12,156 nt of DNA, from contig JAISTN010000409.1 in assembly GCA_031272565.1 (NCBI GenBank), positions 1-12,156 on the forward strand. Direction: 5' to 3'. Every line of letters starts with the position of its first letter. Position 1 is the first letter of the stretch. The position numbers and the translations under genes are program-made. The notes beneath the pieces were generated by a model. That model made no database searches and had not been told where the DNA came from. It saw only the letters and a list, made by a program, of their open reading frames with translations. Positions 6,499 to 7,429 of the stretch are shown piece by piece. The DNA is from Bifidobacteriaceae bacterium (GTDB lineage: Bacteria > Actinomycetota > Actinomycetes > Actinomycetales > WQXJ01).

Positions 6499-6581
6499 CT
6501 GCCAGGCGCCGCCTGCCCGTACCGGCCTGCCTGCGGTTAGTCGCGGGAGTGGAGCCAGCCTTCCGGTAGCACCGGCAGGCG
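6499..6581. repeat. 83-bp direct repeat, left copy (displaced dus 3' end)
   Basis: This stretch matches 7347-7429 at 79 of 83 positions with no gaps, at a constant offset of 848 bp. Mismatches are at 6527, 6551, 6552 and 6577. Outside these limits the sequences diverge at once. Inside are two small dyads, CAGGC-GCC-GCCTG (6503-6515) and CCGGT-AGC-ACCGG (6563-6575), near either end of the repeat. The copy lies between the two convergent toxin genes. Confidence 0.93.
6537..6581 (-). pseudogene. Fragment of a dus 3' end
   Basis: Read on the minus strand this fragment encodes RLPVLPEGWLHSRD and then TAA (6537-6539), against RPPVLPEGWLDSRD-stop at the end of the intact dus at 7385. Two of 14 residues differ (Pro to Leu and Asp to His) while frame and stop are kept. 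The differences suggest a copy from a diverged dus allele, or an old duplication, rather than a very recent one. It has no start of its own and is not expected to be translated independently. Confidence 0.75.
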
Positions 6582-6596
6582 ATCTATCCGAATACC

Positions 6597-7034
6597 CTAG
6601 GTGCCCGGCTCCGCCCGGAAGGCTTCGGGTGTCACGGCCCTGATGCCCCGCCCTGCCAGCACCCGCACCATGGTCTGATCACAGGTGACAACGCAGTCCA
6701 GTCCCTCCCGGATCGATTCGGCTGCGGCTACATGGATGGCGTCAAGTGACTTGATGACTTCTGGGAGGGCCCTGGCGGTCGCGATTGTCGTGCTGTCGAG
6801 TGGGATCGCCGCAATGTGGTCAAGGGCCTTGTTGACAACTTCGGGGATCTCGGGGCGGTCCGGCAGTTCGTGGGCGAGGCGGATGGCCGTTCGGCTGGCC
6901 TCCAGCCAAAGCAACTCCGAACTGACCAGGTGAAGGTCTGCCGCGCAAAGAATGGCCAGAGCGGCCTCGTGTCCGGTCGCATCCGGGACCATGCCTCGCA
7001 TGAAGGCGGAGGTGTCAAGGTAAACCGTTCTCAC
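6597..7034 (-). CDS. Type II toxin, PIN-domain ribonuclease (VapC-like)
   Basis: A 145-aa PIN-domain protein, predicted to be an Mg2+-dependent RNase toxin. Acidic residues fit the PIN active site: Asp7 in TVYLDTSAFMRG, Glu40 and/or Glu45 in SSELLWLEASRTA, Asp98 in IKSLDAIHVAAA, and Asp119 in VVTCDQTMVRVL. It starts with GTG within the antitoxin stop (GTGA at 7031-7034). It belongs to a different PIN branch from the toxin at 6079-6474: DTSAFMR and SLDAIHVAAA here versus DTHILVWAL and HSDPFDRLL there, so the two modules are not recent duplicates. The TAG stop is followed in frame by five codons that run straight into the dus-end fragment. Row 6781-6840 has 34/60 G+C, lower than the surrounding housekeeping genes. 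Confidence 0.87.
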   Translation of the reverse strand: MRTVYLDTSAFMRGMVPDATGHEAALAILCAADLHLVSSELLWLEASRTAIRLAHELPDRPEIPEVVNKALDHIAAIPLDSTTIATARALPEVIKSLDAIHVAAAESIREGLDCVVTCDQTMVRVLAGRGIRAVTPEAFRAEPGT

Positions 7035-7309
7035 CAGAACCGCCTGTCGGCGCGTTCCTCTTCCAGCAACGCGTCGATGTCGATACCCAAAGGTTCCGTC
7101 AGGTGCGGGACAAGCTCCTCCTGCGTCTTAGCCGGAATGATCTTCGCCGCCGCCACCAGGCGCTCCCACGAATCCACCGGCCGGAACGGAATCACCCGGG
7201 CCAACGGCCGCCCAGACTTGGTAATGACTAGTTCTTCGCCGTTCTGAACACGCTGAAAGACTGCCGAGGTGTGCTGGTTCACCTCCCGGATGGTCAACGT
7301 AGCTGCCAT
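7031..7309 (-). CDS. Type II antitoxin, Phd/YefM family
   Basis: A 92-aa antitoxin. Residues 4-42 (TLTIREVNQHTSAVFQRV, then EELVITKSGRPLARVIPF) are a classic Phd/YefM DNA-binding fold, the ITKSGRPLA stretch being its hallmark. The C-terminal part, with IDIDALLEEERADRRFW at the end, is the acidic toxin-binding tail. It precedes and overlaps its toxin by GTGA. The ATG at 7309 lacks an obvious Shine-Dalgarno sequence, and only 75 bp separate it from the dus stop, so its promoter must lie within or beside the right-hand repeat unless it is read through from dus. A small dyad TGTC-A-GACA at 7329-7337 and a direct TGTCAG repeat (7312, 7329) in this leader could be an operator. It should neutralise the PIN toxin downstream. 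Confidence 0.88.
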   Translation of the reverse strand: MAATLTIREVNQHTSAVFQRVQNGEELVITKSGRPLARVIPFRPVDSWERLVAAAKIIPAKTQEELVPHLTEPLGIDIDALLEEERADRRFW

Positions 7310-7346
7310 GTTGTCAGGCTACCATGAGTGTCAGACAGCGTTCTAC

Positions 7347-7429
7347 CTGCCAGGCGCCGCCTGCCCGTACCGGCATGCCTGCGGTTAGTCGCGGGAGTCT
7401 AGCCAGCCTTCCGGTAGCACCGGCGGGCG
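7347..7429. repeat. 83-bp direct repeat, right copy (functional dus 3' end)
   Basis: Second copy of the repeat at 6499-6581 (79/83 identical). Positions 7385-7429 are the last 14 codons and stop of dus; 7347-7384 are the 38 bp following the stop. Both internal dyads are kept (7351-7363 and 7411-7423). The dyad 22-34 bp after the dus stop can fold as a 5-bp stem with a 3-nt loop but lacks a U-tract, so it is a poor intrinsic terminator. Confidence 0.93.

Follow-up and report, generated by a model that had tools for sequence, protein, structure and literature searches.

A toxin–antitoxin cassette framed by a long duplication of the dusB 3′ end, and similar footprints at other toxin–antitoxin loci

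A Phd/YefM–PIN toxin–antitoxin (TA) pair, TA2, lies between two 83-bp copies of the 3′ end of dusB in the window, by which we mean the whole stretch of 12,156 nucleotides analysed here, a contig of a draft Bifidobacteriaceae genome (G000; 436 contigs, 69.5% complete). The layout is best explained by the insertion of a bare TA cassette into the last dusB codons with duplication of 83 bp of the target, a reading to which we assign a probability of roughly 80%. A sister species has a single dus end and carries the cassette as a unit elsewhere, the same footprint is present at other TA loci, and one of these has a clean empty site in a related genome. The pattern extends beyond the window, and a bare cassette with a long target duplication is a better reading than a dus-specific element.

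The two copies align without gaps at a start-to-start distance of 848 bp (Table 1), and 81 of 86 positions are identical when the alignment is extended to 86 nt. Among the 20 largest direct-repeat families listed for the window, the next longest direct repeat measures 37 nt at 70% identity. The dus gene was assigned to dusB by NCBIfam (TIGR00737, 322.8 bits against a cut-off of 293.3). Within the 765 bp between the copies, the only Pfam matches are the two TA genes, both above cut-off; they are coupled by their 4-bp overlap and read on the dusB strand. TA2 has no transposase of its own and no fixed short duplication, repeats across all cases ranging from 39 to 163 bp, and no integrase was seen among the window ORFs, which were read by eye, nine of them also with Pfam. 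The sequence-only reading had placed both copies correctly, together with their identity, spacing and anatomy, and its description of the intervening DNA as a Phd/YefM–PIN pair agrees with Pfam (PF02604 and PF01850). It took the left copy for a displaced duplicate; we concur, and insertion is the best reading of the TA pair, given that the sister species has only one dus end and lacks TA2 there.

Table 1 Features of the window around the dusB 3′ end
Feature	Position	Strand	Evidence
TA1: Phd/YefM (5837-6082) and PIN (6079-6474)	5837..6474	+	24 bp left of the left copy
Displaced dusB 3′ end, left copy, 83 bp (14 codons, stop and 38 bp of trailer)	6499..6581	.	79/83 to 7347-7429
TA2 cassette, 765 bp	6582..7346	-	Found in G001:C66 at 89% over window 6575-7360
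PIN-domain (VapC-like) toxin of TA2, 145 aa	6597..7034	-	PF01850, E 5.2e-10
Phd/YefM antitoxin of TA2, 92 aa	7031..7309	-	PF02604, E 3.7e-9; TIGR01552; 4-bp overlap with toxin start
Right (native) 83-bp copy, runs into dusB	7347..7429	.	G001 dus alignment 81.6% over 7364-8413
dusB, intact, target gene	7385..8485	-	PF01207, E 1.3e-74; TIGR00737 above cut-off

A second Phd–PIN pair, TA1, which that reading did not include, is opposite in orientation to TA2, so that two TA pairs are stacked at one gene end; across 58 other genomes TA1 gave partial DNA matches only, the best of 71 bp at 79%. The DusB protein itself ends in WLDSRD in G000 (window 7385) and in WLASRT in the sister species (L105 5102), and six other DusB members of the family that we compared run 19 residues further. 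The shorter end is thus present in the sister species too, without TA2 there.

The sister species, G001, is the sole other member of the genus among the relatives listed, and both genomes are drafts. The 83-bp repeat has one match in G001, at dus (80% over about 60 bp), where hutU adjoins dus with 171 bp between them and no TA pair; between the aligned flanks, the hutU–dus junction measures 159 bp in G001 compared with 3392 bp in the window. G001, although empty for the cassette, is an imperfect before-state, because hutH and TA1 are also absent from its junction. A relative with one copy and no cassette, as the sequence-only reading had called for, is thus found in G001 as far as the single dus end without TA2 is concerned, but the missing hutH and TA1 blur the comparison. 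In the window, hutH lies at 3988-5607, between hutU and dus; the closest G001 copy (64%) lies on a different contig, C40, and in a further genome (G010) hutH is at the hutI end of the cluster.

TA2 is present in G001 at another locus, contig C66, between a ROK regulator and an AMP-ligase. The homology extends 7 bp into the left repeat and 14 bp into the right, and the flanks of the C66 cassette contain no dus-like sequence and no long direct repeat. This speaks against the earlier idea of an element that brings a replacement dus end with it. The start of the window repeat has 6 of 7 bases, and its end 7 of 7, in common with the edges of the G001 cassette (p 3e-3 and 4e-4; 0.024 and 3e-3 with slack), figures that are modest and presuppose that the G001 flanks resemble those of the donor. 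The toxins of the two species are identical at 131 of 145 residues; a search of 5.8 billion proteins returned 64 relatives, the window's own included, of which the G001 copy alone exceeds 57% identity.

These comparisons also bear on relative ages. At four-fold sites, G000 and G001 agree at 65% for hutU, 56% for hutF, 63% for dusB and 59% for glyS; the values are 80% (33/41) for the TA2 antitoxin, 75% (61/81) for the toxin and 80% (199/248) for the AMP-ligase. The G000 contig that carries the AMP-ligase (L144) stops at the flank where G001 has TA2. The two repeat copies have diverged by 4.8%, and the duplication looks younger than the species split because this figure is set against a four-fold agreement of 56–65%. 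From these sequence comparisons we infer that the 83-bp duplication postdates the split of G000 and G001, and that the TA2 cassette and the AMP-ligase share one common level of divergence.

Similar footprints were found at other TA loci. G000 and G001 together gave 15 PF02604 matches, and only 1 of the 13 screened outside the window has the same layout, which weighs against the insertion reading. At this locus in G001 (L161), a GH35 gene has its last 14–15 codons and stop in duplicate (61 bp, 93%), the second copy being separated from the gene by a DUF4143 ATPase and a Phd–PIN_3 pair whose antitoxin falls just below the Pfam cut-off; a nested 27-bp repeat surrounds the TA pair alone. The start region of this ATPase (L161 5495-5792) is 95% identical to a stretch at a different locus in G000 (L207 1-297), which is far above the housekeeping level and in G000 ends beside a putative sugar kinase ORF, as judged by eye. 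Three loci with TA2-like toxins in other genomes were also screened, one of them (L164) framed, by eye, by a palindromic repeat.

We then widened the screen to 100 Phd/YefM loci of relatives (60, then 40), taken among the matches listed, down to E 1.2e-8; we left out G000 and G001, second hits lying close together on one contig, and eight matches close to the start of their contig, and flanks are short at some loci where the contig ends. A locus was scored when a direct repeat of at least 30 bp and at least 80% identity had the antitoxin between its copies. Repeats up to 4 kb apart spanned 8 of 60 and 8 of 40 TA loci, compared with 16 of 300 random G001 windows, which were drawn from stretches that include the highly repetitive L179 and palindromes. 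Tight repeats, at most 1300 bp apart, were present at 5 of 60 and 4 of 40 loci (9/100). Among the controls, the counts were 11 of 635 pseudo-centres taken from these loci (p 5e-4) and, in G001, 36 of 2693 blocks (p 2e-5). Removing L288 and L333 while leaving the controls whole gave 7/100 (p 0.006 and 7e-4). All of these p-values are optimistic, since adjacent control blocks depend on one another.

In the wider screen, eight loci have a repeat that corresponds to the 3′ end, or the stop-codon region, of an adjacent gene, and in 6 of the 100 it includes that gene's stop codon. The genes concerned are mutM (L274, 67 bp), hrpB (L295, 39 bp), a Cys/Met PLP enzyme (L252, 45 bp), an ABC-ATPase that we take to be UvrA-like (L332, 162 bp), an ORF without a Pfam hit (L345) and, at L366, a stop region, with no more than the stop and about one codon covered by the repeat. 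At the other two, a zinc dehydrogenase (L364) and an ABC-2 permease (L353), about 49 codons are duplicated, without reaching the stop, and the TA pair has another ORF next to it. At L345 (3249-3683), the PIN toxin ends in GAQV and a stop, the same residues as the end of the target ORF, and its C terminus may derive from the duplicated gene end. Eight spanning repeats were set aside by eye and not counted as gene-end footprints: L277 (60 bp, 100%), which lies just past a stop, L298 (124 bp), which covers a DUF4143 gene's start, L288, a palindromic repeat, L333, whose repeat consists of two PIN-like paralogues, L363, which looks dispersed, and L262, L278 and L348, which are ambiguous. Of these, L277, L298, L288 and L333 belong to the nine tight loci, as does L366. 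Including the window and L161, there are ten gene-end footprints. In 8 of these 10 the TA pair has the orientation of its target gene (p 0.055), a bias that random insertion does not predict and that counts against the explanation we prefer.

The clearest before-state was obtained for mutM. Two stretches of the occupied locus in G030 (L274 2208-2667 and 3276-3800) match G077 at L312 1106-1565 and 1501-2025. The two L312 matches overlap by 65 bp, that is, by a single repeat copy, and the left flank and mutM are joined in this congener, whose genome is one contig. In two further congeners (G194 and G198), 40–41 bp of both G030 copies match one single place beside mutM. The TA unit itself (about L274 2692-3268) is present at 81–83% in at least five other genomes: it is far from mutM in G204, G207, G200 and G201, whereas in G023 it adjoins mutM in the opposite orientation, and there the wider screen found no repeats around it (L279). 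The unit is a YefM–YoeB pair, and its G023 copy (L311, G023:C1:608489-609450) lies beside mutM in another family. On these alignments, one event would have added the cassette and one repeat copy at mutM, with a proper before-state.

This case weighs on the first of the competing explanations, in which the cassette and the dus end were duplicated in tandem and most of the first cassette copy was then deleted. Over its first 7 bp the repeat is similar to the edge of the G001 cassette (6/7), as if the left copy came from a cassette–dus junction, and extra partial copies are present at L274 and L298. But two events are required, whereas the mutM locus is one step away from the empty site in G077, and we consider a tandem duplication unlikely.

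A somewhat smaller chance still attaches to a non-autonomous site-specific element of the dus 3′ end, mobilized by a recombinase in trans and carrying a replacement dus end (attL/attR). The displaced end and the 95% identity fit this layout, and integrases at dusA are known, according to the part of that literature available to us (PMC4482086). The dus elements described in the same source use the 5′ end of dusA, however, whereas the window has the 3′ end of dusB, and the G001 cassette is without a dus end. We screened the best 80 of 131 dus loci from genome_contigs, of which 79 were used and one partial match (L100) was left out. A second dus 3′ end was found at 0 of the 79. Seven extra matches were seen, four inverted and three direct; the latter measure 22–42 bp, fall within the coding part and leave the stop uncovered. 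Such an element would be recognized by repeated use of the dus 3′ end together with an integrase; neither was seen, in the 79 loci and among the window ORFs read, respectively. The same footprint occurs at unrelated genes, mutM, hrpB and the Cys/Met PLP enzyme among them, so the earlier view of dus as a special site is not supported. More generally, a site-specific recombinase is a misfit because the target genes differ, the repeats vary from 39 to 163 bp and the cassette occurs elsewhere without a repeat; a transposon is one because the duplication is long and variable and a transposase is missing.

Two further explanations fare worse. Homologous recombination at dus of a circle from another strain that carried TA2 and the dus end (Campbell type) would yield the order repeat–TA2–repeat with a few differences between the copies, but it needs a prior linkage of TA2 and dus, of which none was seen, and leaves both the footprint at other genes and a patched junction at L161 unexplained; we regard it as very improbable. 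Chance or an assembly artefact, for which the 436-contig draft might be blamed, is hardly credible given 79/83 identity, footprints in two genomes listed as 100% complete (G019 and G030, of 1 and 20 contigs) and an empty site in the one-contig genome of G077.

Several other sources of such a repeat were considered. A search of G000 with the left copy returned, besides the two window copies, a single partial match of 31 bp (90%, E 1.6e-4), on contig C408. A dispersed repeat is therefore ruled out, G000 having two copies and this partial and G001 one, in line with what the insertion hypothesis of the sequence-only reading had needed. The C408 match (L106 1785-1814) corresponds to the trailer part of the repeat, covers the stop (1797-1799) of an unrelated ORF and is possibly another copied piece of a gene end. 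Plasmid and phage collections gave no DNA match at ‘distant’ sensitivity and viral contigs no encoded relative, and carriage by a plasmid, phage or virus was dropped on these grounds. G001 has a dispersed palindrome of about 110 bp (CTCGCGAGAGTACGGTTATGTAG...), possibly MITE-like, that occurs in pairs (L188, L178 and L205) and, by eye, frames an ATPase-like ORF in L188 and another ORF in L205. Palindromic repeats of this kind were discarded as the frame of TA2, the G001 palindrome not being present in the window; the repeat pairs inspected were those of L161, L188, L178 and L205.

The insertion of a bare cassette could have proceeded as follows. A 765-bp unit comprising the promoter side, antitoxin and toxin, and no recombinase, would enter the last codons of dusB and duplicate 83 bp of its target, so that the gene body keeps a complete 3′ end and the second copy is displaced to the far side. 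The event may have taken place during DNA repair, either by template switching in replication or by the joining of ends that staggered breaks had left. In the second route, the fill-in of widely staggered ends would capture a TA fragment; of the two, we favour template switching. A repair-type event is suggested because repeat length varies (39–163 bp), the target genes differ and some junctions contain extra copied pieces. The L161 junction (4270-4405) is patched from three nearby places with bases in common at the seams, and extra partial repeats are present at L274, L298 and L345; the bases shared by the window repeat and the G001 cassette edges point the same way. The L161 patches come from the end of the GH35 gene, from inside an ORF resembling a cupin and from one resembling a flavodoxin, as judged by eye. 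End joining that depends on Ku was set aside, as PF02735 had no match in G001 or in the incomplete G000.

Insertion inside a gene would survive selection only if the duplication restores the gene end, and a bias towards gene ends could thus arise without targeting, because only end-restoring insertions within genes would survive. As known TA biology implies, post-segregational killing would then favour retention of the cassette. Its precise loss by recombination between the copies is probably rare, because their longest run of identity is 28 bp.

The closest precedent is the insertion with long target duplication (ILTD) described for restriction–modification (RM) addiction modules by Nobusato et al. 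2000 and Furuta et al. 2010, as cited in later papers (PMC3874152, PMC1643837, PMC3031569, PMC2654758), one of which, in the part available, gives the duplications as long and variable, ‘in the order of 100 bp’ (PMC3874152). As far as these sources go, the cases resemble ours in their addiction-type cargo, in movement unlinked to a known mobile element and in the comparison of related genomes (PMC3874152, PMC1643837, PMC3031569); the inserted genes of the window are likewise flanked by long direct target repeats. They differ in that the cargo here is a Phd/YefM TA pair rather than an RM system, the host belongs to an actinobacterial order and the stretch duplicated is in many cases the 3′ end of a gene. 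We treat the window as an ILTD variant because the anatomy matches and the cargo differs. ILTD is also marked by a related genome with a single copy and no insert; for the window, G001 has the single copy and lacks TA2 but lacks hutH and TA1 as well, and the comparison is clean for the mutM analogue only (G030 versus G077).

Other known systems are more distant. Genomic islands and prophages integrated at dusA, as available excerpts describe them, also have a dus gene as their target (PMC4482086, PMC8409611); their site is the dusA 5′ end and they have an integrase (PMC4482086, same excerpt), whereas the window has the dusB 3′ end, with no recombinase seen and no site preference found. The ccdO157 module in folA–apaH and other lone chromosomal TA islets likewise lie between housekeeping genes, but the accessible text of these two sources makes no mention of a long target duplication (PMC7167474, PMC2654758). 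Gene transposition in Arabidopsis, in the portion of the report at hand, involves moved genes with flanking direct repeats, often found also at the orthologous unoccupied site; the cargo there consists of plant genes, not addiction modules (PMC2869330). Among the titles and abstract openings searched, an incomplete coverage that leaves most subscription papers outside, we found no report of TA insertion with a long target duplication.

A 2020 review, in the sections available, calls the mechanisms of TA integration ‘unelucidated’ (PMC7167474), and the footprint makes this question testable. Its presence at unrelated genes, together with one single-copy empty site, provides a concrete, searchable signature of the integration step, connects TA modules with the mode of insertion reported for RM addiction modules and may show how TA genes move. 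Only tentatively would we extend the reading to chromosomal TA modules as a class, which would then move as bare cassettes, independently of a recombinase, with long target duplications that rebuild 3′ ends and with addiction fixing them in place. If that is true, TA and RM addiction modules would have a common mode of mobility, in which insertions even into important genes survive.
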